Shown here piece after piece: positions 378 to 14,343 of a stretch of DNA of 14,589 bases (positions within the stretch are counted from its first letter, which is position 1; every line of letters begins with the position of its first letter). The notes below the pieces were generated by a model. That model had not been told where the DNA came from. It did not search any database and was given only the letters and a program-made list of their open reading frames with translations. Source of the DNA: an uncultured bacterium (GTDB lineage: Bacteria; Hydrogenedentota; Hydrogenedentia; Hydrogenedentales; CAILVY01); NCBI GenBank assembly GCA_937951485.1, contig CALEDJ010000035.1, forward strand, positions 1 to 14,589. Direction: 5' to 3'. The translations under genes and the position numbers were made by a program.

Positions 378-1514
378 TCAGCCCTGCGCCAACGGCGCGA
401 TGACATCGAGTTCGACCTCGAAGAGAAGATCGTGACGGCATATGTCGGTGTTGGCGAAGAGCACGGGCAGGGCGGGGATGCCCTGAGCGGCGGAAATGCG
501 TTCAAACACGCCTGCATCTTGCGGGTTTTTGAAGTAGGCGATGAAACGCGTCACGTCGCGCCAGTGCATGTCACGCGATTCGAGGATGGCCTGGACCACC
601 TGCATGGTCAGGGCGGCCTGGGCCTCCGTGTCGCCGATATGCACGCTTGCGCCGTTCGGTGCGATGCTGGCCGTGCCGGAGATGAACAGCCGGCGATGCC
701 GCGCGGTTTGGAGTTCCACGGCGCGGCTGAAGGAACTGCCGTAGTCGGTGGCGGGGCATTGCATTGGAGAGCCGACCTCGACGGGGACAATGTCTATGGT
801 GTCGGCCTTTGCCGCGAGCAGTCCGGCGGTCAATGCGGCCCCGATGGCATTGCGTCCGCCAATGCCTGTGCTTGCGGGCATCAGTCCGTCAAATACGTTG
901 TGCTCCCGGAAGAATGTCGTCCGCACCGCGTTGAAGTCGTCGTACCATTCAAGCATCGCGGTGTTGTAGAACCACGTGCGCAGGACGTGGCCAAAATTCA
1001 TGTCCGCAATTTCCAGTGCCTGCATCATCATCTCGAAGACGGCGTGAGTCTGGGCACTTCTCGATTTCGCGATGTCTGGGGGAACAAGCCCGCCGAGACG
1101 ACAGAAACGCGCTCCATCGCTGCTGAATACGCACCCCACGGTAGAGCCATTTATGACAACGGGTTCCACAGGGGCGTGCGCCACCGCCCATGCCTGGATG
1201 CCGCGCAGCGGCGCTGCCTGATCGCAGCCTTCCTCCACCCAGGTCACCGGAAACGTGATGTCGCCGAAGGCGCCGGGCAGCCCGGCGGCGTCCGCGCCCG
1301 GAAATCCGAAGACCTCCATAGATACCGGTTGCGCACCGAGGTCGCGCATCGCGTCCGCCAGACGCCCACATATGGCATTGAAAGAATCGTCCAATGCCGC
1401 CCGCGCGGTGATGCAATACTCTGATACGTCGCCGCATCTCACTGGAATGATTTGCATCTCCTGATTCACATGCTGCTCCAATGCGTGCATCGCCGTGCCG
1501 TTACTGCATTTCAT
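378..1514 (-). CDS. two-part Rid/YjgF-superfamily protein (chorismatase/FkbO-like layout)
   Basis: The protein has 378 residues. The C-terminal part (about 258-372) reads as a Rid/YjgF domain: a Y-G-S-S-F-S-R-A start, an FISGTASI strand, a helix followed by the AYFKN strand, and an FEVELDVIAP end. A second conserved block at about 137-220 (TWFYN, YDDFN, PASTGIGG) resembles the N-terminal half of larger Rid-family enzymes such as FkbO/Hyg5 chorismatases. Known single-domain RidA proteins (about 130 aa) deaminate reactive enamines/imines, while the long forms have other or unknown activities. There is no signal peptide, so it is probably cytoplasmic, unlike the three exported cytochromes before it. 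The ATG at 1514 has a possible GGAAG at a short spacing of 5. Later in-frame ATGs have no better site. The gene starts 214 bases after the cytochrome gene, so co-transcription is possible but unproven. Confidence 0.75.
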   Translation of the reverse strand: MKCSNGTAMHALEQHVNQEMQIIPVRCGDVSEYCITARAALDDSFNAICGRLADAMRDLGAQPVSMEVFGFPGADAAGLPGAFGDITFPVTWVEEGCDQAAPLRGIQAWAVAHAPVEPVVINGSTVGCVFSSDGARFCRLGGLVPPDIAKSRSAQTHAVFEMMMQALEIADMNFGHVLRTWFYNTAMLEWYDDFNAVRTTFFREHNVFDGLMPASTGIGGRNAIGAALTAGLLAAKADTIDIVPVEVGSPMQCPATDYGSSFSRAVELQTARHRRLFISGTASIAPNGASVHIGDTEAQAALTMQVVQAILESRDMHWRDVTRFIAYFKNPQDAGVFERISAAQGIPALPVLFANTDICRHDLLFEVELDVIAPLAQG

Positions 1515-1728: not shown

Positions 1729-3594
1729 TCATAGCGAAAGCACGAATTCCACAAGATCGGCCAATTCCTCGTCGGTCAGGTTGGAGGTGTTTCCATGTCT
1801 ATTTTTCGGGTTGTGTTTCTTGAATACATCCAGCATCGTTGCGGCGCGACCGTCGTGCAGATAGGGCGCGGTGCGCCACACTTCGACAAGGGTGGGTGTA
1901 TCAAAAGATTGTCCTGTGTCCATGCCGGTTCCGGTGCCGATGTCGTAATGCTGCAAATCGGTATAGAGCGGCGCCGGGTGGCATTCGGCGCAGCCTGCGC
2001 GCTCGAAGATGATTTTTCCGCGTTGGGCCGCCGCGCTGAGAGCCCCGTTTTGAAGGTAGGGGCTGGGGACGGGCTTGAGGCTCTTGAGATAGGCGTCAAT
2101 GGCTTCGGCATCGGATTCGGGCCGCACGGCGAACTGGATGTGGCGGATGCCGGCGCGCACGGCGGTTTCAGCGGTGTCGCGGACGCCCAGGCTCATGGCG
2201 GGCGGCGTCTCATGGGCGAGCAGCATGCTCCTGGTGTTCTTGGGATTGCCGATGCCATCGTTCAGCAGGTCCCAGTTCAGAGCGTCCACACGGTCATCGG
2301 GATGACAACTGGCGCAACTCTGCCATTGCTGAAAACACAGGGCGGCGTCGTTGAAGAAGCGGGCGCCGTTGCGTTCCTGCGTCATCGGCGTGTCGCCAAC
2401 CAGCGCAATGCTGCGGATTTGCGGCCGGCCCCCGACGGGGAGTTCCAACACGCTGATGCTGTCCGTGAAATACTCGCCCGCATAGGCGGCATCTGCAGTT
2501 AAAACCAGGTTGCGCGGACCGTTTCCAACGAGACGGATGCGGCGGCGGATATCCACGAGGAAACTCAGGTCGTTGGGCACGTCGGCGGCGCTCCTGGAGA
2601 CTTCCGAGACCCGCTCGCCCGCCGCCACGCGGTCCAGTTTCTCATGCAGCGCGGCGCGATCGATGAGGCTGATCTCGTGCGTGCCCGCATGCGTGAGGCA
2701 GAGGGTCTGCCCATCCGGGGTGCATGCAACGGCCCAGGGATTGGCCGCGCCCGCATCCACGTCATCCAGCAGGACGGTGTTCACATGCGTTTTCGTCGCC
2801 GCGTTGATGATGCTCACGGCGTTGGTGTTCATCCATCCGCGTTCGAGTTGGGTGGTCGGCAGTTGGTAACGGGCGAGAATATGCGTTGCGTAGGCATAGC
2901 GGCCGTCGGGCGACACGCATATCCCGCGCACGCCGGTGCTGCCGTTCGGCAGGGGAACCATGGCCGCCACACTGTTGGATGCGGTGGCGATGATGGAGAC
3001 CGTGGCGGCGGTGTATGCGCCATCGGCGGGGCCGTCCGGCAGGAGATTGGCGACGAAGAGCAGCGCGCCGTCGGGGGTCAGGGCCAAGGCCACGGGTTCG
3101 CGCACTGCCGGGATGCGCGCCGATTCTTGCCGGGTCGCCACATCCACCACCGAGATATCATTGTTGAATCGGTTGCCGACGTATAACGCGGAACCGTCCG
3201 GGTGCAGCGCGACAGCCATTGGCGTGTGGCCCACGGACACCGCGGCCTGTTCCTCACCGGTGGCCGTATTGATAAATCGTACGAGTCCTGCCGGGGCTGC
3301 ATTGGTTACGTAGAGTGTCTTTCCATCCGGCGACAGGGCGAGTCCGCCCGGCGCTTCAGGCAGCGCGATGCGGCGCGCGACTATGCCCTTTGCTGGGTCC
3401 ACCACGGCGATACTGTCCGCGGTGTACTCCGCGACATACAGCGTTCGCGCATCGCGGTCCGCCACCATTGCCAGCGGCGAACGATAACTCACTTCCGCCC
3501 CCTGCGCCGCCGCAGCCAGGCAGCACAGGGCAATGATACCGAACGTTGCGGCCGTGCCGCGTGAAATTTTCACTCCTGCACATTCCCGTCGCAT
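1729..3594 (-). CDS. exported YVTN beta-propeller fused to a two-heme peroxidase/MauG-like cytochrome c
   Basis: The protein has 621 residues. Residues 14-32 form a hydrophobic signal segment ending AQGA. Residues about 37-400 are a beta-propeller of repeated blades with P-D-G and LYV motifs (ALSPDGKTLYV, ALHPDGSALYVG, CVSPDGRYAYAT, ACTPDGQTLCL). Residues about 405-621 carry two covalent heme motifs, CASCH (427-431) and CAECH (535-539), followed by TAPYLHDGRAATMLDVF (575 onwards), the sequence typical of bacterial di-heme cytochrome c peroxidase/MauG relatives. It should sit in the periplasm and handle electrons or peroxide-like chemistry. The region holding both hemes is shorter than a full CcP. 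TGGAAGG lies 8 bases before the ATG. It begins 28 bases after the preceding cytochrome gene, so the two are probably co-transcribed. The propeller-plus-diheme order matches the beta and gamma subunits of hydrazine synthase, but that is an architectural comparison only. Confidence 0.88.
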   Translation of the reverse strand: MRRECAGVKISRGTAATFGIIALCCLAAAAQGAEVSYRSPLAMVADRDARTLYVAEYTADSIAVVDPAKGIVARRIALPEAPGGLALSPDGKTLYVTNAAPAGLVRFINTATGEEQAAVSVGHTPMAVALHPDGSALYVGNRFNNDISVVDVATRQESARIPAVREPVALALTPDGALLFVANLLPDGPADGAYTAATVSIIATASNSVAAMVPLPNGSTGVRGICVSPDGRYAYATHILARYQLPTTQLERGWMNTNAVSIINAATKTHVNTVLLDDVDAGAANPWAVACTPDGQTLCLTHAGTHEISLIDRAALHEKLDRVAAGERVSEVSRSAADVPNDLSFLVDIRRRIRLVGNGPRNLVLTADAAYAGEYFTDSISVLELPVGGRPQIRSIALVGDTPMTQERNGARFFNDAALCFQQWQSCASCHPDDRVDALNWDLLNDGIGNPKNTRSMLLAHETPPAMSLGVRDTAETAVRAGIRHIQFAVRPESDAEAIDAYLKSLKPVPSPYLQNGALSAAAQRGKIIFERAGCAECHPAPLYTDLQHYDIGTGTGMDTGQSFDTPTLVEVWRTAPYLHDGRAATMLDVFKKHNPKNRHGNTSNLTDEELADLVEFVLSL

Positions 3595-3622
3595 ATGCCT
3601 TCCCTTCCATTTCGCAGTTGGT

Positions 3623-6232
3623 TCAGGGACTATCGTACACTTTTACACCCCTGCGAATCGCGTCGCGGTTCATTCGTTCGATTTCCAGGCGCGACAGGTA
3701 TCTGGCCTGCCGCTGCCGGTCCACCGCGCACGGCTCGAAACCATCCATTCCCGAGGGGGGCCGCCGCCGCAACATTTCGCGCCCGGCGCGGACGATCGCC
3801 AGCGCCTCCGCGTAGTGCTGCGGATTCCCGGCGCGCAGCGCCGCAAGACATGGACTGAGTTCGGGGCGATTGAAGGTGATTTGCGGGCCCGGATTTCTGT
3901 TGAAAGCCATGAGTTCCGCAAACGGCACGCCCGTCAAGGCGTTCAGTCGCGCGATTTGCGCGTTATCCAAGGGCGAACGCCCCGCCAGGTTGTCGGGATA
4001 TGCCGACGCATATTCCGGGTAGAACGGCGCGTTGATGTCAATCCACGTCACAATCCGGTCAAGACTTTCCTGGTCCAGCGCGACATCATGGTGTGGTTGG
4101 CCAATCACTTCCAGCAGTTTACTTGCGTGGGAACCCCATGTATAGGGTTGTTGAATCGGGGCCGGGCCTGCGCCAATCGCGTTGATGATCTTTTTGCGCC
4201 AGAGTTCGTTGTAGGAAGTATTGAATACCAGGTCAAGATCGCCCGCCAGGTTCAATTTTTCGCCCGCTTCTTCGCCGTAGTCGTGGCAGCGGACGCAATG
4301 CCGGTCAAAGACCGGCTGCACTTCGCGCAGGTAACTGAAGGTGCGCGGCGGGCCGTACCAGCCGTCGAGGGTGCTGGGGAGGCGGCGCAACGCCGCAGGC
4401 ATGCCGCCGGGCGTCATGGATGGGGCGCTTCGGCGGTCTTCGTGGCATCCCGCGCACCCCTGCTGTTCGCCCGACTGCACCATCGTGCCGCTGCGCATGG
4501 ACTGCACCATCATGCCTTTCTCATCGAGCAACTGGAAATAGACGAAGGTGTCTGAAGGCGCGGCGAAATAGGCGGAACCGTCTTCCTCGACCGGCACGGT
4601 CCCGAGAATCATTTTGTTGTTGAAGTCGTGCCAGGCCATGGCGGGCGCGGCCTGTCCCTGTCCTTCCCATGCGGGATGGGTCCACATGCGTTTTTCCGGC
4701 GAGGCCACAACGCGAAGATACTTGACCGCGCCGCGCTGCACGCCCTGCATGTGTGTGCCTCGATAGACATCGGTCACGTAGAAATATCCATCGCCGTTCT
4801 CAAAATCGCGGCGCAACGGAATGACGGGGGGGCGCGGCGAAGGCGCGATGGGCATGGGGTCATAGCAGCCCCATGTGGGCGCGGAATGGTCTTCCGCGTG
4901 CAGCAGGATTTCATTTCCGTGCACGTCAATCAGGTACATTCCCATGCGCTCGCCTTTGCCGATGGTGCGCGAGCACAGGAAATACTTGTCATTGAGCGGG
5001 AAGGGGTCTTCATATTTCGGCGAGACGCCGATAAAGGTGTCGAAATTGTAACGGTCCCAATCGCCTTCGCCGACCATACGGATGGCTTCCGGTGGCCAGA
5101 TGCGCACGATGGAATCGCTGGGAATGTCCCGAACCGCGCCATCAAGCCCCAGGCGCCGGTCGAGGATGGCGAGCGCGCCCCAGGGACGGTCATGACAGGA
5201 CCCGAAAATGCAGAGCACCTGCTGCGTGCCGGGGATGGGACGCGCGTTGAAGACCGCACCGGGCGACTCGGTGTTGTTGCCCCAGTACACCGCGTGGTTG
5301 GTTCCGTCAGGGAACACGGTCCAGAGTCCCTGTGCGTCGCCGAAATTCCGGTCCACATACTCCCAGCGGTAATAGAGGATGCGTCCGTCGGGCATCAGCG
5401 CGCCGTGCCCTTCGAAGAGCGTGCTCCTGCCGATCTGGTGGATGTTCGCGCCGTCCGCGTCCATGCGGAAGAGGTTGCACATGATGTGTCGGTTGCACAT
5501 GCAATACTTGGGTTCGCGCGAAGAGGAAAACACGATGCTGTCGTCGGGCAGGTAAAGCGGGTCAATGTCGCTGACGCCCTGCGCGAAGGTGAGTTGCCGC
5601 AGGCCGCCGCCATCAACATTGATCTCGTAGATGTGATAATCGTCCTCGATGTTCCGCCGCATCGAGAAGATGATTCTGGCGCCATCGAAATGGACTTCCG
5701 GGTCGCGCACAACACCGTGGGGGAGTTCCAGCAAGGTACGCACCGCGCCTGCCCGTCCGAAATCTATCGTACGCAGCGCACTGCCGCCTTCGAAGATTCC
5801 GGTATTGATTTCGCCGGTCTGAAACATCGTTTCGGTGTTATGGTGGTCGGGCTTGTACTGACGGCGCGCGACATACAGGATGGGGCGGCCGCTGACCAGC
5901 GGGTTTGCCACGAGGGCTTCCCGCTGCAAGCGCCGGAACGCCGCAATCTCCTCTTCCGCTTTTTTTCGTAATGACGGCCTGAGGGACACGCGCATGGCCC
6001 GGATTTTCGCCAATCGCTTCTCGAATGCTTCCAAATCTTTGAGAAACGCCGGGCCGCGCGGATAATCATCGGAAAAAGAGGCTGTGAGGTCTTCAATCGC
6101 AGCCCTCAGCGCGGCGCATTCCGCTTGTTCAGGCAGGACGTTTGCCGATGATGCGAACGGCGCTCCGACGGCAGGCAGCAGGATTATGCAAAGCACGGCA
6201 TGCGTGCTTTTCATACAGGGCGATATGAACAT
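3623..6232 (-). CDS. exported PD40-propeller di-heme cytochrome, hydrazine synthase alpha-subunit-like
   Basis: The protein has 869 residues. The signal peptide is best read from Met7 (position 6214), MKSTHAVLCIILLPAVGAP. The annotated Met1 is kept because neither start has a clear ribosome binding site, and coupling to the gene 20 bases upstream is plausible. Residues about 35-110 are helical and end EALVANPL. Residues about 115-460 form a TolB/PD40-type propeller (MRRNIEDDYHIYEINVDGGG, LYLPDDSIVFSSSR). A middle domain (about 465-600) carries heme motif CAGCH (593-597), and a C-terminal domain carries CVRCH (646-650). A conserved tail follows to the end (INAPFYPE, then about 130 further residues). 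This order matches the alpha subunit of anammox hydrazine synthase and its uncharacterised relatives. The residue four after the first heme His is Arg, not the Tyr I recall as heme ligand in the true enzyme. The reaction is unknown. Confidence 0.85.
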   Translation of the reverse strand: MFISPCMKSTHAVLCIILLPAVGAPFASSANVLPEQAECAALRAAIEDLTASFSDDYPRGPAFLKDLEAFEKRLAKIRAMRVSLRPSLRKKAEEEIAAFRRLQREALVANPLVSGRPILYVARRQYKPDHHNTETMFQTGEINTGIFEGGSALRTIDFGRAGAVRTLLELPHGVVRDPEVHFDGARIIFSMRRNIEDDYHIYEINVDGGGLRQLTFAQGVSDIDPLYLPDDSIVFSSSREPKYCMCNRHIMCNLFRMDADGANIHQIGRSTLFEGHGALMPDGRILYYRWEYVDRNFGDAQGLWTVFPDGTNHAVYWGNNTESPGAVFNARPIPGTQQVLCIFGSCHDRPWGALAILDRRLGLDGAVRDIPSDSIVRIWPPEAIRMVGEGDWDRYNFDTFIGVSPKYEDPFPLNDKYFLCSRTIGKGERMGMYLIDVHGNEILLHAEDHSAPTWGCYDPMPIAPSPRPPVIPLRRDFENGDGYFYVTDVYRGTHMQGVQRGAVKYLRVVASPEKRMWTHPAWEGQGQAAPAMAWHDFNNKMILGTVPVEEDGSAYFAAPSDTFVYFQLLDEKGMMVQSMRSGTMVQSGEQQGCAGCHEDRRSAPSMTPGGMPAALRRLPSTLDGWYGPPRTFSYLREVQPVFDRHCVRCHDYGEEAGEKLNLAGDLDLVFNTSYNELWRKKIINAIGAGPAPIQQPYTWGSHASKLLEVIGQPHHDVALDQESLDRIVTWIDINAPFYPEYASAYPDNLAGRSPLDNAQIARLNALTGVPFAELMAFNRNPGPQITFNRPELSPCLAALRAGNPQHYAEALAIVRAGREMLRRRPPSGMDGFEPCAVDRQRQARYLSRLEIERMNRDAIRRGVKVYDSP
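5477..5503 (-). other. Cys/His cluster in the propeller (possible metal site)
   Basis: Residues 244-253 of the 869-residue cytochrome read CMCNRHIMCN, giving three Cys and one His in ten positions between two propeller blades. The tandem paralogue has a single Cys at the matching place (FQGIPCVGG). The spacing is not a CxxCH heme site. In hydrazine synthase I recall, without certainty, a zinc near the first alpha heme that uses a propeller cysteine. A metal site here is an inference. Confidence 0.3.
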
Positions 6233-6252
6233 TTGCCATGAGTCCCGTTCAA

Positions 6253-9200
6253 TCAGGGGGCATTCTTTCCCAGGGCTATTCTGGTGTCGTCCTCAACAAG
6301 CGCCACAACGCGGAAGCCGACGTTGAAAACGGGCTGCCAGGGTTCGTAGGCGAGGCGGAATGTGGCGCGGGCGCGATGGGGCCGGTCGAACCAGGAACCG
6401 CCGCGCGCCACCCGTCTTCCGGTGGCCGCGGGATCATTACGGCCATCATCTTCGACATAAGGATAAGGCCGATAAGCCGAGAGCGTCCATTCCGCTACGT
6501 TCCCGTGCATGTCATGCAGACCCCAGGGATTCGGCTGATACGACGCCACAGCGGTCATGATCTTTGCGCCGTCGTTGAAGCGGTCATCCTTGGGCAGAAA
6601 ATCCTGGTAGCGACTGGGATTCTTGATGGGCTGGGGATCAACGCCGCTGACGGCGAGCAGGCTGATGGACTGGTCTGCCAGATTGGCGAAGGCTGAGAAG
6701 TCCGTATCGCCGTCCCCGTACCAGAATGGCGTGTCCGCCCCGGCACGGCAGGCCCATTCCCATTGCGCTTCCGTGGGCAGCGTGCAATGCAGGCTGGTCT
6801 GCTCCGATAGCCACGCGCAGAAGGCCATCGCCTCCTCCCAGGTAACGCGAATCACAGGGCTGTCGGGCGCGTGCGCGGTATAGCCCGGTCTGGTGTGGTC
6901 TTTGTGATGCTGGTCAATGTAACCGCTGTCGTGCTGGGGATTGAATCGGTGATACTGGGCGTTCGTGACTTCCGTCACCCCCATCCAGAACGGGCGCTCA
7001 ACGCGCACCGCCGCGATGGGATGCTCATCCGGAAAGCCATCAATATCGCCCATGACGAATTCGCCGGAGGGGATAAAGGCCAGTTCCATCACGACGCCGC
7101 CGCCTAAATCAACGGTCCGGCGGACCGCCGATGCGGCGGCCTGCCGGCGGCGTACGGCCTCCGCCGCACTGAATGGCCAATCCGCCGCGGTGACACCTCC
7201 GGCCCGTGGTTTTGGCGGTGCGGCGGGCTGGATAAAATCCGTATCGATCGGCGGCAGTTCGGGGATGAACTCCGGGTCTTCCGGACGGTTCGCGTAGAGG
7301 GTGCGCATTTCCAGACGACGCTGATGGAAGTTGTGGGGAATCGGTCGGTGTTCACCCCAGGTGCCATGGTCCGGCACATTCAGGTCTATCCAGGTGTAAA
7401 GGCGGTCCCAGGCATCATCGTCCAGCGCGACGCCGTAATGCCCTTTCTCCAGCATCTGCACCAGTTCGCTGGTATTGACAAAAAACTCCTTGGGTTTCTG
7501 GACATAATTGTCGCTTTCAGGGCCGGGCCGCCGCACATAGGGATGCAGGGCAAGATAGGAAGGCGTGAAATTGTTCCAGCCGTTCGTTTCTTTCCGGGTC
7601 AAATCAAGCAGGTTATAGCCGTCTTTGCGTTGTTCGGTGTTGTGGCAACCGACGCAATGCCGGTCGAGCACGGGTTGCACATCGCGCTTGAAACTGAAAC
7701 CCCGTGCGGGGCCTTTCCACGGAGTGATTTCCACAGGCGGCCTGCGTATGGCGAGGGTCGGCACGGCAGGGGGGGACATGTTCTGCTTCTCGTGGCATCC
7801 GACGCAGGACACGGCTTCGCCGGGCATGCCCACGAACCAGCTGCGCATGATTTGGACGGCGCGGCCTTTGGCATCGAGTGGCTGCACGGCAATGGGGATG
7901 TTTGCGGGAACTTTGAAATACGCCGAGCCGTCGTCATGGATCGGAACGGTGCCGAGAATGCGGCGGACATCCCAGGGCCCCTCGACGCCGATGTGTTCGT
8001 GGCCGCCCATCTGGGGATAAGCATAGTGAAATTCGTAGACGCGGAGGCCCTTTATCGTACCGCGCGGCACCCCGCGCATTCCTTCGCCCTGGTAAACGTC
8101 CACGAGATAGACCGTCGCCTCGTTCTGGTCCAGGCGCACGCGGTCCGGGATGACCGGGGGGCGGGGTGTGGGGCGGAACGGCACCGGCTCGAAGAGCGCA
8201 TAGCCCGGGGCCTCCTGAAGGAGCAACATGTTATCGAATACGTCCACCAGGTAGATGCCCCACAGGGATTTGGGGGCAGGCTTGCAGGACACCAGGAAAT
8301 ATTTGTCACTAAGCGGATATGGATGCAGGAATTTGGGCCAGGCATCGTCCACCAGGTGATCCTTGATCACGGCCTCTACTTGTTCGCCGTAGCCGGGGAT
8401 GCGCTGGACGACGCCGTTGCTCTCGAAACGGCTGATGGCCGGATCGAGGATGACGAGTTCGCCCATGCGCGGCACGCCGTGGTGACCGGAGACGATGGCG
8501 ACGACAGCGGTGGGATGGCCGGGGATCGGGCGGGCATAGAAGGTGGAGTTCGGCCAGTAGGAATTGCTTCCGTAATACTCGGCCTGGTTCGTGCCGTCGG
8601 GGTTCATGCTGAAGAGGATGCGGCTGAAATAGTGGGCGGTGTCGGAATATTCCCAGCGGGTATAGAGCACGCGGCCATTATTCAGTACGGTCGGACACCA
8701 GTTGTGGTCCTGGTCAAAGCAGAGTTGGCGCGTGTTGCCGCCGTCGGCATCCATCAGGAACAGATTCGCCACCCGGTCCGCCCCGCCGACACAGGGGATG
8801 CCCTGGAAGACTCTTGTGGATGCGAACACGATGCGTCCGTCCGGCAGATAGCAGGCGTCGTAATTGTGTACGTCCGGTTCCTCGCCACGTGTTACCTGAC
8901 GCAGTCCGGTGCCGTCGGCGCGAATTTCCCAAATCTGCCAGTGGCCGTGACTCCCCGGCATCGAGAACAGCATCCTGTCCGCGTCGAAATGGAGGTCCAC
9001 ATCGCCGACAAAGGCGTCATTTTCAGGGCGGTAGAACGTCGTCAGCGCCCCGTCGGGCCGCACCGGCGCAAGGATGGCGATTTCGTTGTCATAACCGCGC
9101 GGCGCGACTGCGCAATTGCCCTGCCAGTTCTGGGGCAGACCCGGCGCGCCTTCCCCGCGCTTGATGAGCAGCAGGCGATCAAAGTCGATCAGCGGATTGG

Positions 9201-9528
9201 CCAGCAGCGCCTCGGTTTTCAGGGACTGAAGGTTTTCAATGATCTCATGCGCTTTTTCGGAATGCACTTCCGAGACAGCGAGGAGATGATCCGCTTCCTT
9301 TTCCAACGCTGTCAGGCGTTGCAAATAGTCGCCGCCATGTGGATACCTAACAGGAAAAGAATGCGCCAGGTCTTCGATGGCCCGCCGCAACGCGCGGGTG
9401 TTCACCTCGCGCAATTGCTGTGAAAAACCGAGGGGCTCCTCCGCCTGGGCGGATGACAATCCACCGTACCACGCCAGGACACTGCACAACACCGCCACGC
9501 TCAAACGAATCCGCATGAATCGCCTCAT
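6253..9528 (-). CDS. hydrazine synthase alpha-like di-heme cytochrome fused to an FGE-like (sulfatase-modifying-factor) domain
   Basis: The frame is open up to 9657, but the best start is the ATG at 9528, with GAGGA 7 bases upstream and the signal peptide MRRFMRIRLSVAVLCSVLAW ending SSAQA. This gives 1091 residues. The helical N-terminus ends EALLANPL. A PD40-type propeller follows (LPDGRIVFASTR, LFLMDADGGN), then heme motifs CVGCH at 575-579 and CVGCH at 625-629. From about residue 807 there is a formylglycine-generating-enzyme fold (FIPSGEFVMG, LPTEAQWEWACRAG, GLHDMHGNVAEWT, RVARGGSWFDR, VGFRVV). In the GGSW segment (1043-1046) the two positions that hold the catalytic copper-binding cysteines of true FGE are Asp1048 and Ala1053, so it should not make formylglycine. 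A binding or C-H oxidising role is possible. It is the tandem paralogue of the gene 20 bases downstream. The frame upstream of 9528 runs through repeats and is not coding. Confidence 0.85.
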   Translation of the reverse strand: MRRFMRIRLSVAVLCSVLAWYGGLSSAQAEEPLGFSQQLREVNTRALRRAIEDLAHSFPVRYPHGGDYLQRLTALEKEADHLLAVSEVHSEKAHEIIENLQSLKTEALLANPLIDFDRLLLIKRGEGAPGLPQNWQGNCAVAPRGYDNEIAILAPVRPDGALTTFYRPENDAFVGDVDLHFDADRMLFSMPGSHGHWQIWEIRADGTGLRQVTRGEEPDVHNYDACYLPDGRIVFASTRVFQGIPCVGGADRVANLFLMDADGGNTRQLCFDQDHNWCPTVLNNGRVLYTRWEYSDTAHYFSRILFSMNPDGTNQAEYYGSNSYWPNSTFYARPIPGHPTAVVAIVSGHHGVPRMGELVILDPAISRFESNGVVQRIPGYGEQVEAVIKDHLVDDAWPKFLHPYPLSDKYFLVSCKPAPKSLWGIYLVDVFDNMLLLQEAPGYALFEPVPFRPTPRPPVIPDRVRLDQNEATVYLVDVYQGEGMRGVPRGTIKGLRVYEFHYAYPQMGGHEHIGVEGPWDVRRILGTVPIHDDGSAYFKVPANIPIAVQPLDAKGRAVQIMRSWFVGMPGEAVSCVGCHEKQNMSPPAVPTLAIRRPPVEITPWKGPARGFSFKRDVQPVLDRHCVGCHNTEQRKDGYNLLDLTRKETNGWNNFTPSYLALHPYVRRPGPESDNYVQKPKEFFVNTSELVQMLEKGHYGVALDDDAWDRLYTWIDLNVPDHGTWGEHRPIPHNFHQRRLEMRTLYANRPEDPEFIPELPPIDTDFIQPAAPPKPRAGGVTAADWPFSAAEAVRRRQAAASAVRRTVDLGGGVVMELAFIPSGEFVMGDIDGFPDEHPIAAVRVERPFWMGVTEVTNAQYHRFNPQHDSGYIDQHHKDHTRPGYTAHAPDSPVIRVTWEEAMAFCAWLSEQTSLHCTLPTEAQWEWACRAGADTPFWYGDGDTDFSAFANLADQSISLLAVSGVDPQPIKNPSRYQDFLPKDDRFNDGAKIMTAVASYQPNPWGLHDMHGNVAEWTLSAYRPYPYVEDDGRNDPAATGRRVARGGSWFDRPHRARATFRLAYEPWQPVFNVGFRVVALVEDDTRIALGKNAP

Positions 9529-9673: not shown

Positions 9674-10345
9674 TTAAAACTTCACCTGCGGATGACTGAA
9701 ACGCAGACCTGCGCCGTCGTGATAAGTGGCGTACTCGGTGACGATCGCGCCTTCCGGGGCCTGCATCCAATGCCACTGCTCCGCGCCGGCCAGCATGCCC
9801 ACCTCGCCGGGCGTCAGTTTCTGTTCCTTGCGTGCGATGGCGCATTCACGGTGCGATTCCGGGATGCGCGCCTCCACCCCGGGGGTCGGCTCGCCTTCGC
9901 CGTAGATGTACACCCACCCATGTCGCGGCTGCCAAGCCTCCATTTTCGGTCCGGCATCGGCGGTGGCCACGTGGCGGTGTTCAGGGATCATCTGGCCGGG
10001 CAGCAGGTAGATTTCGTGCCCGAAATAGTTGTCCTGCCGGTTGTTGACCCAGAAGATGCCGGCCATGCCGACTTCCATGAACTTCCCCATCCCGAAGTCA
10101 ATCGCCCAGAACTCCTCGGTGCGCAACCTGGGGACGATGGGATAATTGAAGTACGCCATCATTTCGTAATACGCGTTTTTCGCGGCTTCGACATCGAACG
10201 TGCCGTCCGGGGTGTAGAAATCCTCATTCCGGTATTTTTTCATCGGGGTCCCCTTTTGATCGGCGGCTTTGGCGGCGCCTGCGGCCAGCGTGCCCGCCGT
10301 TGCCGCAACCACGCCGCCCAGCACTGTGCGTCGGCTGATTTCCAT
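9674..10345 (-). CDS. Tat-signal cupin, D-lyxose isomerase-like
   Basis: The protein has 223 residues. The N-terminus has the twin-arginine motif SRRTVLGG, a hydrophobic stretch and AKA at 25-27, consistent with Tat export or retention in the membrane. The body is a cupin with candidate metal ligands His123, His125 and Glu136 (PEHRHVATAD, KMEAW) plus His192 (QWHW). The segment DFGMGKFMEVGMAGIFWVNN (about 83-102) closely resembles the DFGLGRFEQVG block I recall from enterobacterial D-lyxose isomerases, which interconvert D-lyxose and D-xylulose. AAGGAG lies 9 bases before the ATG at 10345. A second ATG (Met35, position 10243) has AAGGGG 6 bases upstream and would give a protein without the Tat signal. 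It starts 25 bases after the aldolase gene, so it is in the same operon. Isomerase activity is likely; the substrate is inferred. Confidence 0.72.
   Translation of the reverse strand: MEISRRTVLGGVVAATAGTLAAGAAKAADQKGTPMKKYRNEDFYTPDGTFDVEAAKNAYYEMMAYFNYPIVPRLRTEEFWAIDFGMGKFMEVGMAGIFWVNNRQDNYFGHEIYLLPGQMIPEHRHVATADAGPKMEAWQPRHGWVYIYGEGEPTPGVEARIPESHRECAIARKEQKLTPGEVGMLAGAEQWHWMQAPEGAIVTEYATYHDGAGLRFSHPQVKF
10243..10255 (-). promoter_or_regulatory. internal ribosome binding site and alternative start of the cupin gene
   Basis: On the minus strand AAGGGG (10255-10250) lies 6 bases before an in-frame ATG (10243-10241). Initiation here would skip the 34-residue twin-arginine leader and yield a 189-residue cytoplasmic cupin. 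The upstream start at 10345 also has a good AAGGAG. Both starts are credible, so either the true start is uncertain or two forms are made. Confidence 0.4.
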
Positions 10346-10370: not shown

Positions 10371-11255
10371 TTATTTTCCTTTCAAGTCGTTATACATTTC
10401 AAAAGCCTTCTCAGGCTTCTCCAGTTGATGCACAACCGCACTGACGGCCTGCGCCATCGCGGGGGGATTCTCGGCGGCAAAGATGTTGCGGCCCATGTCC
10501 ACGCCCAGTGCGCCCTGGTCCACCGCCTTATAGGCCATCTTCAGGGCGTCCAGTTCGGGCACTTTCTTGCCGCCCGCGATGACCACCGGCACCGGACAGC
10601 CCGCCACCACTTCCTCGAAACCCGGCTCGCAGTAGTAGGTCTTGACGAAATGGACGCCCAGTTCCGCGATGACGCGGCAGGCAAGGCCGAGATACCGCGC
10701 ATCGCGCACCATCTCCTTTCCCACCGCCGTGACGCCGAGTGTGGGCAGCCCGAAACGGGCGCCTTCGTTGATGAGGTGCGAGAGGTTTTCCAGGGTCTCT
10801 TTTTCATAGGGCGCGCCGATACACGCCTGCGCCGTGACCGCCGCCGCGTTCAGCGCCAGCGCTTCCTCTATTGAGACGCCGATGACTTCGTTGCTCAGGT
10901 CCCTCAACACCGTCGCGCCCGTGCTGCATCGCATCACGACCGGCTTGTGCACTTCCGGGCTGATACAGGCGCGGAGCGCGCCGCGCGTGCACATCAGGCA
11001 GTCCACATGCGGGATCAGCGGCGGCACAACGAGGTCTATCCGCTCCAGACCCGTGGTCGGCCCCATGATGTACCCGTGGTCGAAGGCCAGCATGACCGTC
11101 CGCCCGGATTTCGGATTGAAAATCCGCGAGAGACGGTTCTTCATGCCCCAATAGAGGTGCGCCGACCCCTTCAGGTAGAAGCCCGGCGTTTCCTGCGGGA
11201 TGCCGATGCCAAAGTCTTTTTTCCCTTCGTCTTTAGTTTTTTCTGCGTCAGGCAT
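10371..11255 (-). CDS. LsrF-like class I aldolase / phospho-ketose thiolase
   Basis: The ATG at 11255 (AAGGA 10 bases upstream) gives 294 residues; a TTG at 11264 is possible but too close to the AAGGA. The sequence follows E. coli LsrF closely: FYLKGSAHLYWGMKNRLSRI, VMLAFDHGY, GPTTGLERID, LMCTRGALR, VIAGGKK and GVDMGRNIF. Lys205 in FVKTYY matches the catalytic Lys203 of LsrF, and Asp59 in FDHGY is also conserved. LsrF itself is a thiolase acting on the phosphorylated breakdown product of autoinducer-2 and yields DHAP and acetyl-CoA. Related class I aldolases cleave other phospho-ketoses. No lsrG, lsrK or lsr transporter gene is present here, so an AI-2 role is unproven. Its start overlaps the end of dhaL by 8 bases (11248-11255), implying translational coupling. 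Confidence 0.88.
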   Translation of the reverse strand: MPDAEKTKDEGKKDFGIGIPQETPGFYLKGSAHLYWGMKNRLSRIFNPKSGRTVMLAFDHGYIMGPTTGLERIDLVVPPLIPHVDCLMCTRGALRACISPEVHKPVVMRCSTGATVLRDLSNEVIGVSIEEALALNAAAVTAQACIGAPYEKETLENLSHLINEGARFGLPTLGVTAVGKEMVRDARYLGLACRVIAELGVHFVKTYYCEPGFEEVVAGCPVPVVIAGGKKVPELDALKMAYKAVDQGALGVDMGRNIFAAENPPAMAQAVSAVVHQLEKPEKAFEMYNDLKGK

Positions 11256-11892
11256 GTGCGTCAATTCCTTTCTTGAAACCCTTGAAGATCAGGGACACCG
11301 ATGTGGCGCCCGGATCCTGATTCCCAATACTTTTTTCCTTCAAATTCCGGGCGCGCCCGAACCTCGCCTGCATGGCGGCGGTTGCAGCGGCGCCTTCGGC
11401 GGCGGCGGCCGCCGCGCGCTGGAGCAGCGCCTGTATGTCTCCGCCCCGCTCCGCCGCCGCATGCATTGCCTCCACGGCGGGCAACAGCGCATCCATCATC
11501 GTCTTATCGCCGGGACGCGCCTTGGTCTGTTCCTGAACGCCCTTGAGTCCGGCTGCGAACAGCGAGGCCACACCGCGCGCGTCCAACGCGTCGCGGTCGC
11601 CGACCGCTTCGGCCATGGCAAGGAAGAACGCGCCCAGGAGCGGTCCGGTCGCCCCGCCGTCCACGCCGAGAATCGCCCAGCCCACATCATGGAGCAGCGT
11701 TTTCAGTTCCGGCGTGGATGCCGCGGCAATCACCTTTTCCATATTGGACATCGCGCGCAGCATGGTGGTTCCATGATCGCCATCGCCGCCCGCGGAATCG
11801 AGTTTCGACAGCATCTCGTGCTGCGCGCGAACCGCCTCCGCCGCGCTGCGCAGCATCCGCACCATATCGTCGTATCCAATGCTTTCCATCAT
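11248..11892 (-). CDS. dhaL: DhaL-type subunit of a dihydroxyacetone/ketose kinase
   Basis: The protein has 214 residues from the ATG at 11892; a second ATG follows directly at 11889. GAGAAG about 8 bases upstream is a weak ribosome site. It is a DAK2/DhaL all-helical domain. LDSAGGDGDHG places Asp32, Asp37 and Asp39 at the positions that hold the two magnesium ions and nucleotide in E. coli DhaL. Further family motifs are GATGPLLGAFF, ARPGDKTMMDAL (128-134) and the C-terminal GNQDPGA. It supplies the phosphate-donor half of the kinase. In PTS-type systems DhaL keeps its ADP and is recharged by DhaM; no dhaM is in the window, so the subunit may use ATP directly or rely on a DhaM encoded elsewhere. 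The substrate could be dihydroxyacetone or a larger ketose such as erythrulose. Confidence 0.9.
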   Translation of the reverse strand: MMESIGYDDMVRMLRSAAEAVRAQHEMLSKLDSAGGDGDHGTTMLRAMSNMEKVIAAASTPELKTLLHDVGWAILGVDGGATGPLLGAFFLAMAEAVGDRDALDARGVASLFAAGLKGVQEQTKARPGDKTMMDALLPAVEAMHAAAERGGDIQALLQRAAAAAAEGAAATAAMQARFGRARNLKEKSIGNQDPGATSVSLIFKGFKKGIDAHA

Positions 11893-12196
11893 ACGGCGCA
11901 CTTCTCTGAAAATACTACAATGCCTGATGCACAATTTCCTGCATGGTCGCAGCATGAATCAAGTGTTGTTGTCTTTTTCGTACATCCCCCGGCGCTTCGC
12001 GCCACCCCCTTCAAAGGGGGACGTATTCGGCATGTTTCAGGTTGATCTATCTGTTCCCGGAAAATGAGCGTAACTGCCATATTATTCACTACCGAAAACG
12101 CACGAAAAGGAATCCCCCTTTGAAGGGGGTGGCGCGAAGCGCCGGGGGATGTTTTCCTGTGACATCTTTGCATTTTGGCAAAGGTTGTATTCATCG
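11893..12196. other. intergenic gap between dhaK and dhaL
   Basis: These 304 bases interrupt an otherwise tight operon and contain the inverted repeat described separately. The remaining flanks (11893-11981 and 12153-12196) are less GC-rich than the genes. I find no convincing -35/-10 pair for a separate dhaL promoter. The only long minus-strand frame crossing it (12194 to 11889) is translated repeat and is not a gene. Confidence 0.5.
11982..12152. repeat. perfect 40-base inverted repeat flanking 91 bases (REP/MITE-like element)
   Basis: The left arm (11982-12021) and right arm (12113-12152) are exact reverse complements over all 40 bases, and the match ends abruptly on both sides. Each arm also folds by itself into two hairpins: GGCGC TTC GCGCC and CCCCC TTCAAA GGGGG. 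The 91-base centre encodes nothing I recognise. The pattern matches paired REP elements (BIME-like) or a small non-autonomous transposable element. In the dhaK-dhaL transcript the arms could pair into a 40-base stem that hinders read-through or stabilises upstream mRNA. I see no obvious target-site duplication. Confidence 0.85.
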
Positions 12197-13198
12197 CTAA
12201 GAAACCGTCAACGCCGGGGTGTTACAGGGGGCGTCCCAAAGCGCTTTCAGTTCATCGTCCAACCGCGCCAGGCACATCTGGAATCCACCCATTTCCTGGA
12301 CAGTCAAATATTCGCCCACCAGGCTCCGCGCCAGCGCAATGCCTTTTTCGTCAAGCAGTTGCCTGACGCGCCGCAACACGATGTACAGTTCCATGAGCGT
12401 GGTCGCGCCGACGCCGTTCAGCATCACGAGCACTTCTTCGCCCGCCTTGACATTCAGGTCGTCAAGCAGCGCCGTGAGCATGATCTCGGCGGTCTCGTCC
12501 GCGCTTTTCAGGGGTTGCGTACCGCCGCCCGCCTCGCCGTGCTGTCCCATGCCCACCACCATCACATCTTCAGGGATTTCCGCGATGACATCGCCCGTGC
12601 CGGGATGCGTCGCACCGCTAACAGCAACGGCCAGGGTCGCCATGTTCCGCTCCATGCGCTCGGCGATGGCGAGGCATTCGTCCAGAGTTCGGCCCGCTTC
12701 GGCGGCGGCTCCGGCCACCTTGATCACCGGCAGACATCCCACCAGCCCGCGCCGTTCTTCCGGATTGTCGCGCGGCCCGCCGGAAATGTCCTCGTGCGTC
12801 AACACCTGCTTGACGTTGAGTCCTTCCTTCCTCGCAAGGTCCATCGCCATCCTGGCCGACATGACATCGCCCGCGTGATTCAAGACCACAAAAAGCACGC
12901 CCGCTTCGCGATTGGCCAGACGCAGCGCTTCGAGCACCCGCGGCGGCCCCGGAGCGGCGAAAATTTCTCCGGGCACACTGATGTCCAGCATGCCCGCGCC
13001 TACAAAGCCGCTCAGCGCGGGTTCGTGACCGCTGCCGCCCAAGGTCACCAACGCGACCTTGTCCGACGGTTTCGGCGCGGCGCGCACCACAAGGTTGTTT
13101 CCTGTGAGCGCCACCTTCGCTTGATGCGCCAACGCAAAACCCTCCAGCAGTTCCGGCACCAAATCATCAGGATTGTTGATAAACTTCTTCATCCGCAT
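12197..13198 (-). CDS. dhaK: DhaK-type substrate-binding subunit of a dihydroxyacetone/ketose kinase
   Basis: The protein has 333 residues, the usual length for DhaK. Motifs in order are KKFINNPDDLVPE, VTLGGSGHEPALSGFVG with His58, NHAGD with Asp111, and GMGQHGEAG with His220. These match E. coli His56, Asp109 and His218; the last forms the covalent hemiaminal with the ketone substrate. The GAGAGGG sequence sits 10 bases before the ATG. It is cytoplasmic and partners the DhaL subunit encoded downstream. The adjoining isomerase-like cupin and aldolase point to a ketose longer than dihydroxyacetone (erythrulose and similar ketoses are used by some relatives), but this is inference. It starts 33 bases after the VOC gene. 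Confidence 0.92.
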   Translation of the reverse strand: MRMKKFINNPDDLVPELLEGFALAHQAKVALTGNNLVVRAAPKPSDKVALVTLGGSGHEPALSGFVGAGMLDISVPGEIFAAPGPPRVLEALRLANREAGVLFVVLNHAGDVMSARMAMDLARKEGLNVKQVLTHEDISGGPRDNPEERRGLVGCLPVIKVAGAAAEAGRTLDECLAIAERMERNMATLAVAVSGATHPGTGDVIAEIPEDVMVVGMGQHGEAGGGTQPLKSADETAEIMLTALLDDLNVKAGEEVLVMLNGVGATTLMELYIVLRRVRQLLDEKGIALARSLVGEYLTVQEMGGFQMCLARLDDELKALWDAPCNTPALTVS

Positions 13199-13231: not shown

Positions 13232-13549
13232 TTATCGTCTTTCCATCAGTTCAATGACGGCGTCGCCGTCCTTGATGAACGCGCAGCGCAACGTTTCGGT
13301 GGCGTCGAACGGCGGCACGATGACATTGTGCCCTTCCAGCGCTTCATCGAGCGAGGGCACGATGAACGCCGCGTGCGGATGCCTGCACACATCCGCCGCC
13401 ATCGGGCTGTCCGCCTCGAAACGCAGAAACTCCACCCGGTAGGGATGCGCTTCCGGATCGGTAACAAACACCTTCGCTCCTTCGATGTAGTTTTCGTTGG
13501 CGTGCCGCTCTGCCGTGGGCACGCCGAAGTGATGGAATTCCGCTGCCAT
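13232..13549 (-). CDS. small VOC/glyoxalase-superfamily protein
   Basis: The protein has 105 residues from the ATG at 13549, which has AAGGAG 10 bases upstream. The frame is open to 13621, but that extension has no ribosome site. It begins AAEFHHFGVPT and ends AVIELME, the usual first and last strands of a vicinal-oxygen-chelate domain. Candidate metal ligands are His6 or His7, His59 (HPHAAFIV) and Glu100. One VOC domain of this size would act as a homodimer. Such proteins isomerise, epimerise or cleave small carbonyl compounds and often accompany sugar catabolism. As first gene of the run it may handle a sugar-derived carbonyl or a methylglyoxal-type by-product. The precise reaction is unknown. 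Confidence 0.78.
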   Translation of the reverse strand: MAAEFHHFGVPTAERHANENYIEGAKVFVTDPEAHPYRVEFLRFEADSPMAADVCRHPHAAFIVPSLDEALEGHNVIVPPFDATETLRCAFIKDGDAVIELMERR

Positions 13550-13654
13550 GAGTTGCCTGCTCCTTGTGGTTGCGTTGAATCCCCGCGGACAGCCCCATTC
13601 CCGCCCGCACCAGCGACTCAACAGGTCTCCGTCGCCTCTTATTTCCCCAAGTAT

Positions 13655-13909: not shown

Positions 13910-13985
13910 GCTGGCGTAGCTCAGTCGGTAGAGCAGCTGACTTGTAATCAGCAGGTCGGGGGTTCGACTCCCTTCGCCAGCTCCA
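13910..13985 (+). tRNA. tRNA-Thr(TGT)
   Basis: The acceptor stem GCTGGCG pairs with CGCCAGC. The D arm is TAGCTCAGTCGGTAGAGC. The anticodon stem GCTGA/TCAGC encloses CTTGTAA, giving anticodon TGT. The T arm holds GGTTCGACTCC. Discriminator T is at 13982 and CCA is encoded at 13983-13985. It is first in the Thr-Tyr-Gly-Thr-tuf unit, matching E. coli thrU. Confidence 0.97.
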
Positions 13986-14002
13986 AAGTTGAAATCCGTG
14001 CA

Positions 14003-14011
14003 TGATATAAT
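14003..14011 (+). promoter_or_regulatory. candidate internal extended -10 promoter
   Basis: TGATATAAT combines the TGn extension with a perfect TATAAT (14006-14011) in the spacer between the first tRNA-Thr and tRNA-Tyr. Transcription would start near 14018, a few bases before the mature tRNA-Tyr end at 14024. No -35 is present at normal spacing. Confidence 0.35.
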
Positions 14012-14023
14012 GTGGCGACCTTG

Positions 14024-14109
14024 GGTGGGTTGCCCGAGTGGCTAAAGGGGACGGGCTGTAAACCCGTTGGCTTGCGCCTACCGTGGTTCGAATCCACGAC
14101 CCACCACCA
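14024..14109 (+). tRNA. tRNA-Tyr(GTA)
   Basis: The acceptor stem GGTGGGT pairs with ACCCACC. The anticodon stem ACGGG/CCCGT encloses CTGTAAA, giving anticodon GTA. A long variable arm (TGGC TTGC GCCTA) marks it as class II, as expected for bacterial tRNA-Tyr. The T arm is CGTGGTTCGAATCCACG. Discriminator A is at 14106 and CCA is encoded at 14107-14109. Confidence 0.97.
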
Positions 14110-14121
14110 TAGATAATAGTG

Positions 14122-14175
14122 TATTCCCTTGTCGGACGGCGGCCCCGGATTCTGGCGTGCCGCCGTGTGGGAATA
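14122..14175 (+). other. long spacer hairpin between tRNA-Tyr and tRNA-Gly
   Basis: TATTCCC (14122-14128) pairs with GGGAATA (14169-14175). Inside it, ACGGCGGC (14136-14143) pairs with GCCGCCGT (14159-14166). The two stems stack with small internal loops. No U-tract follows. It may guide processing of the tRNA-tuf precursor. Confidence 0.5.
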
Positions 14176-14182
14176 TTGCAGA

Positions 14183-14258
<76 letters not shown>

Positions 14259-14267
14259 GATATACCG

Positions 14268-14343
<76 letters not shown>

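Follow-up and report, generated by a model that had tools for sequence, protein, structure and literature searches.

A sugar-gene operon in a Hydrogenedentota bacterium encodes distant homologues of hydrazine synthase subunits, probably for a different redox task

Hydrazine synthase (HZS) is the key anammox enzyme and has been called an orphan without a clear ancestor. In this enzyme, haem alpha-I is held by Tyr591 and His587 binds zinc together with Cys303; in haem gamma-I, Cys165 supplies a third bond, a thioether, and Asp168 lies near the iron (PMC12607021, PMC12758564). Outside anammox bacteria, neighbouring genes for HZS alpha-like and beta-gamma-like proteins have been reported before (PMC10732223, PMC12758564): in Phycisphaerae UBA1845 an alpha-like gene lies immediately upstream of a fused beta-gamma-like gene, and a wider enzyme family with other substrates was proposed (PMC10732223), and such pairs were sorted into clades I-IV, with HZS residues lost and the electron-relay Trp of MauG/CCP proteins reported in clades I-III (PMC12758564). 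Here we analyse a locus in an uncultured Hydrogenedentota bacterium (assembly GCA_937951485.1), the window being the whole of contig CALEDJ010000035.1 (14,589 nucleotides) from a draft genome of 4.55 Mb whose nearest named relatives are metagenome-assembled genomes of Candidatus Hydrogenedentota. In this window three adjacent genes, alpha-FGE (FGE, formylglycine-generating enzyme), alpha2 and beta-gamma, encode exported haem proteins that are, as judged by sequence and profile comparison, distant homologues of the HZS subunits. An earlier reading of the window, made from the letters alone (the sequence-only reading), had described a hydrazine-synthase-like locus and suggested a periplasmic redox complex with a new substrate; as a kind, such a set is not new, as the two reports show.

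The three open reading frames (ORFs) all lie on the minus strand (9528-6253, 6232-3623 and 3594-1729) with gaps of 20 and 28 bases, exactly the spacings which that reading had given; ORF starts are approximate, and apparent signal peptides are read at the starts of all three products. Their features are as follows.

6253..9528, minus strand: alpha-FGE, exported HZS-alpha-like di-haem protein (PF18582 and PF03781; hhalign to HZS alpha, 97.6%)
7789..8061, minus strand: HZS_alpha middle domain of alpha-FGE, with CVGCH and without Tyr591
6304..7083, minus strand: FGE-like domain (C-type-lectin-fold family) without the FGE catalytic cysteines (PF03781, E=1.5e-49)
3623..6232, minus strand: alpha2, exported HZS-alpha-like di-haem protein (PF18582, E=1.3e-31; hhalign to HZS alpha, 99.4%)
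4439..4732, minus strand: HZS_alpha middle domain of alpha2
1729..3594, minus strand: beta-gamma, exported protein joining a propeller to a MauG/CCP-type di-haem domain (NF052342, E=3.1e-51; 5c2v_B and 5c2v_C; Foldseek, 5c2v_B)
2302..2337, minus strand: beta-gamma signature C420-F-Q-x-W424-Q-S-C-x-S-C-H around haem gamma-I

The PF18582 HZS_alpha domain was identified in both alphas, with E=4.1e-32 in alpha-FGE. By sequence, alpha2 matches the Kuenenia chain 5c2v_A (E=1.1e-13), and the profile of its orthologues aligned with anammox HZS alpha over columns 171-735 on 120-810 (probability 99.4%, E=4.5e-21), an alignment spanning the propeller, middle and C-terminal haem domains; the alpha-FGE profile aligned with a probability of 97.6% (E=2.7e-12). 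The anammox reference sequences were L204, L206 and L207, and the CxxCH positions of L204 match the published Kuenenia numbering. The fold ascribed to the alphas is read from these profile alignments. Beta-gamma matches NF052342, the model of the HZS beta-gamma fusion, as well as NF052340 (beta) and NF052341 (gamma), and it matches 5c2v_B (E=2.6e-30) and 5c2v_C (E=5.6e-28) by sequence and also by profile; the best PDB match of its predicted model was again 5c2v_B, HZS beta (E=2.8e-28). Its gamma region falls in the MauG/CCP superfamily, with matches to MbnH, MauG and CCP models. The combination that defines the HZS-like superfamily, an alpha with the PF18582 middle domain co-encoded with a YVTN propeller/di-haem CCP/MauG protein, is found here. 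The HZS domain parts that the sequence-only reading had recognised by motif and architecture were thus recovered in all three proteins by Pfam and NCBIfam searches, 5c2v chain matches and profile alignments, and the beta-gamma fusion was confirmed. Its description of two alpha-layout proteins was right for the PF18582 domain of both and overlooked a further C-terminal domain in alpha-FGE.

In alpha-FGE the propeller, the middle haem domain and the second haem domain are followed by that C-terminal FGE-sulfatase-type domain of 260 residues, and several orthologues carry an extra N-terminal region of ~270 residues. Formylglycine-generating enzyme has its catalytic Cys pair in RGGSxxCxxxxC; the corresponding RGGSWxDRP stretch holds no Cys in ten alpha-FGE orthologues, and an active formylglycine enzyme was rejected on the lack of these catalytic cysteines. 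Separately, residues 243-252 of alpha2 (YCMCNRHIMC) contain C244, C246 and C252, which are invariant in five alpha2 orthologues and may make up a metal site within the propeller.

The CxxCH motifs of haems alpha-I, alpha-II, gamma-I and gamma-II are all kept, but the other HZS active-site residues tested are gone. At Tyr591 a gap follows CxxCH in both window alphas and in all other non-anammox alphas aligned, and Cys303 is replaced; loss of both residues is likewise described for HZS homologue clades, and Cys303 is missing in Scalinduaceae too (PMC12758564). At gamma Cys165 the residue is absent or Gly in the window beta-gamma and its family, with no Asp168; the alignment there crosses gaps and the exact facing residue is uncertain, but no Cys or Asp is close by. 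Gamma His144 is absent as well, being Ser in the window and mostly S, I, A or V across the family. For the distal His772 of haem alpha-II, both window alphas have an invariant His one residue away from the aligned position, and this His is absent in clade I sequences. The NCBIfam HZS equivalog cut-offs were not reached (alpha2, 64.6 bits versus 800; beta-gamma, 174.4 versus 1250), and no match of the hydroxylamine oxidoreductase/hydrazine dehydrogenase (HAO/HDH) type above the family cut-off was found in this genome. On these alignments and scores, the window proteins are not a hydrazine synthase, and anammox metabolism was rejected for the locus on the loss of the HZS active-site residues and the lack of an HAO/HDH match above cut-off. 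The hydrazine-synthase likeness thus stands as homology and not as function.

To place the pair in its genomic context, neighbourhoods were built from tblastn and homology-scored ORFs, since greedy ORF calling in this GC-rich DNA picks antisense decoys; the locus set includes some duplicate records, and several related loci are truncated or have masked stretches. Among 68 genomes of the order, 39 hold both alpha and beta-gamma, 2 only beta-gamma, 7 only alpha and 20 neither (Fisher p=1.8e-9, not corrected for kinship). Across the phyla of the Planctomycetes-Verrucomicrobia-Chlamydiae (PVC) group, an alpha lies within 6 kb of beta-gamma in 41 of 61 related loci, and directly upstream in 30 (the 61 being beta-gamma family loci with at least 3.5 kb upstream, window included), against a chance expectation of ~4% if 20 alphas per 6 Mb are assumed; the association is not random. 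About 13 loci have two or more same-strand alphas upstream, often one FGE-bearing and one plain. The ratio is one to many: this genome has one beta-gamma and nine alphas, and eleven named genomes have 0-68 alphas and 0-4 NF052342 matches each. The alphas adjoining beta-gamma belong to several alpha subfamilies, which fits a role of beta-gamma as a shared hub.

The operon extends in both directions beyond the three cytochrome genes by six more, and the nine genes of interest share the minus strand, in the transcription order VOC-like, dhaK, dhaL, LsrF-like aldolase, lyxose-isomerase-like, alpha-FGE, alpha2, beta-gamma and RidC; the same order was found again in other Hydrogenedentota. Promoter and terminator scans gave nothing above chance. 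The six further genes are the following.

13232..13621, minus strand: small VOC-like protein, with which the conserved operon opens (orthologues with 55-74% identity in the same place)
12197..13198, minus strand: DhaK-type kinase subunit (PF02733, E=7.3e-106; place in operon conserved)
11248..11955, minus strand: DhaL kinase subunit (PF02734, E=4e-46; TIGR02365 over its cut-off)
10371..11264, minus strand: LsrF/DeoC-family aldolase or thiolase (NF006081, 435.9 bits, cut-off 297; 77-86% identity in conserved operons)
9674..10345, minus strand: D-lyxose-isomerase-like cupin, exported, with a twin-arginine signal (profile matches to 7nzo, E=4.4e-22, and 2y0o, E=9.5e-20)
378..1514, minus strand: RidC, RidA/FkbO-chorismatase-like, without signal peptide (5ag3, E=1.3e-17; PF01042)

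The first of these has no Pfam or NCBIfam match, and VOC-like is our reading of its sequence. The lyxose-isomerase-like protein keeps the putative metal ligands H123, H125, E136 and H192 invariant, and its twin-arginine (RR, Tat) signal is read from the sequence. An isomerase-kinase-aldolase layout is typical of sugar degradation, and the exported isomerase-like protein, DhaKL and the LsrF-family aldolase would make up such a set. In a survey of 20 fetched loci of the order, the dhaK-dhaL-lsrF-isomerase genes were present in 9 of 9 loci with a close alpha-FGE orthologue (at least 62% identity) and in 0 of 11 others; the co-encoding with sugar genes noticed before is thus non-random. In 28 of 69 related loci RidC is the next gene downstream of beta-gamma. 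It also follows beta-gamma at loci without any sugar genes (L070, L074, L075 and others), which ties it to beta-gamma and not to the sugar module. This genome's seven remaining alpha paralogues (L157-L162) are located elsewhere, some of them near a sulfatase, GFO/IDH/MocA oxidoreductases, a sodium:solute symporter and an aldo/keto reductase. At the end of the contig, four tRNA genes (Thr, Tyr, Gly, Thr) occupy 13910-14343 of the window on the plus strand, and the long minus-strand ORFs antisense to them are probably spurious.

Alignment, profiles and genome surveys together support the earlier suggestion of a different substrate, and the three proteins probably form an HZS-related redox machine with a different job. 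The exported isomerase, the DhaKL/aldolase set and the neighbours of the other alphas favour a periplasmic oxidoreductase for carbohydrate-derived compounds. Our preferred reading, to which we give a probability of about one half, is that the proteins form a redox complex in the periplasm that acts on carbohydrate-derived substrates, beta-gamma being the shared hub and the alphas giving specificity. In this model, where we infer the physical complex, the class of substrate, which way electrons flow and what the FGE-like domain does, the three genes would yield a periplasmic multi-haem oxidoreductase on the hydrazine synthase plan without hydrazine chemistry. The propeller and di-haem parts of beta-gamma would serve as a common docking and electron-transfer hub, onto which HZS-alpha-like proteins would dock, each bringing a substrate-facing haem and specificity; the two different alphas would be made together with the hub, perhaps occupying both alpha positions of an HZS-like dimer, and the FGE-like module could bind a ligand or glycan. 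A carbohydrate-derived compound would be handled by the complex, most simply by oxidation, electrons may reach the haem-copper oxidase that is present in this genome by way of the gamma haems and a small cytochrome, and the lyxose-isomerase-like isomerase, DhaKL kinase and LsrF-like aldolase would pass the product into central metabolism.

Several points weigh against this reading. The alpha/beta-gamma interface has no structure or complex prediction in its support; the beta-gamma model (mean pLDDT 74) is poor in the haem region, and the AlphaFold2 model of alpha2, built from an alignment with five orthologues, had a mean pLDDT of 38 and was not used. Some beta-gamma loci have no alpha nearby and many have no sugar genes, the sugar link being drawn from gene neighbourhood. 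The kinases DhaK and DhaL, like RidC, lack a signal peptide, and a metabolic chain running across the membrane is a guess.

One competing explanation, though unlikely, holds that beta-gamma is a MauG- or peroxidase-like maturase, which modifies many alphas post-translationally or loads oxidising equivalents into them, the alphas then working alone. The membership of the gamma region in the MauG/CCP superfamily and the single beta-gamma facing many alphas speak for it, as do the new conserved residues Cys420, Trp424 and Met467 near haem gamma-I. In all, Cys420, Trp424 and Arg472 were kept in 82 of 82 beta-gamma family members and Met467 in 81, and Cys420 and Trp424 are not present in HZS or clade I. 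The scan patterns used to collect beta-gamma relatives included Cys420 and Trp424; position 423, however, is neither His nor Gln in 43 of the 82, which therefore cannot have been picked by the pattern, yet keep both residues. In a beta-gamma tree rooted on HZS, the 81 family members group with a support of 0.63, from which no claim on branching order is drawn. MauG carries a His-Tyr haem, and position 580 of beta-gamma, which stands opposite the His in the FHDG motif of HZS gamma, alternates in a way that resembles it (His in 48/82, Tyr in 28/82). But the relay Trp between the two haems that marks MauG and di-haem peroxidases is replaced in this family, no Trp being among the residues listed at the gamma His144 position; no conserved modification target was identified, and the beta propeller is retained together with its loop, both of which lie between gamma and alpha in HZS, and this fits a stable complex better.

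Equally doubtful is the proposal that these are carbohydrate-linked c-type cytochromes analogous to planctomycete-specific cytochromes (PSCyt), the alphas being non-catalytic and accepting electrons from separate dehydrogenases in the periplasm or acting as sensors for them. PVC genomes show an expanded alpha family, its members adjoin sulfatase and GFO/IDH genes in a setting like that of the PSCyt genes of Verrucomicrobia (PMC5615132), and the haem alpha-I site, without the HZS tyrosine, looks like a canonical CxxCH; the operon, however, encodes no dehydrogenase, and a substrate-specific role is suggested by one alpha-FGE subtype going strictly with one sugar module and by the HZS-type architecture being kept. 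A genuine hydrazine synthase, or an NO/ammonia enzyme, in a non-anammox bacterium is largely refuted and highly improbable: the three kinds of subunit are all encoded side by side, with their haem motifs kept, but the active-site residues and an HAO/HDH-type match above cut-off are missing, the scores fall far under the equivalog cut-offs, and the neighbours are sugar genes.

Extended beyond this locus, the redox-complex reading becomes more tentative: a PVC-wide modular periplasmic platform may exist, with one or a few conserved beta-gamma hubs per genome and many HZS-alpha-like subunits that can replace one another, each having its own carbohydrate-derived substrate, and with HZS as a specialised relative. 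Were this true, the HZS dimer would have a heteromeric counterpart in the tandem of alpha-FGE and a plain alpha. The origin of HZS can be asked about from a concrete start: a relative that is widespread, keeps its haem architecture intact, belongs to a defined operon and has an implied role outside nitrogen chemistry. The model also gives a first hypothesis on what the multi-copy 'HZS_alpha domain' proteins of PVC bacteria do, whose present label is misleading. One Verrucomicrobia metagenome-assembled genome of 12.6 Mb (G074, the genome of L128) has 68 HZS_alpha-domain matches, so PF18582 alone is a poor, unsafe anammox marker.

Compared with anammox HZS (Kuenenia, PDB 5C2V), the window subunits are homologous and have the same domain order, alpha and gamma each carrying two CxxCH haems, and the propeller loop region is conserved in beta-gamma, one loop Glu aligning to E251; the fusion of beta and gamma is likewise reported for Scalindua HZS. 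In contrast to the anammox enzyme, the window proteins have neither Tyr591 and Cys303 in alpha nor Cys165, His144 and Asp168 in gamma; there are two alphas, one bearing an FGE-like domain, the gene order is alpha then beta-gamma, and the genes sit in a sugar operon with no HDH match above cut-off in the genome. The UBA1845 clusters are described in genomes with nitrogen-cycle genes (PMC10732223). PSCyt proteins resemble the window alphas as multi-copy PVC haem proteins with carbohydrate neighbourhoods and fused binding modules, but their domain families differ and no HZS-type beta-gamma partner is described for them (PMC5615132). Unlike the clade-I-like sequences L210, L211 and L215, the window beta-gamma has two CxxCH, without eight extra N-terminal haems, Cys165 or the relay Trp. 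Such ten-haem beta-gamma-like proteins, with eight extra N-terminal CxxCH and a nearby same-strand alpha-like gene that is shorter, were observed in PVC genomes (L210:7168-10026, L211:7292-10171, L212:7326-10184, L215:6686-9664); they match clade I of PMC12758564, and those aligned retain Cys165 and the relay Trp. The FGE fusion, the tandem alphas, the one-to-many ratio, the sugar operon and the Cys420/Trp424 signature were not found described in the excerpts of PMC10732223 and PMC12758564. Among the described groups, and compared by description only, the window group most resembles clade IV, having no FG-GAP or ABC neighbours (PMC12758564).

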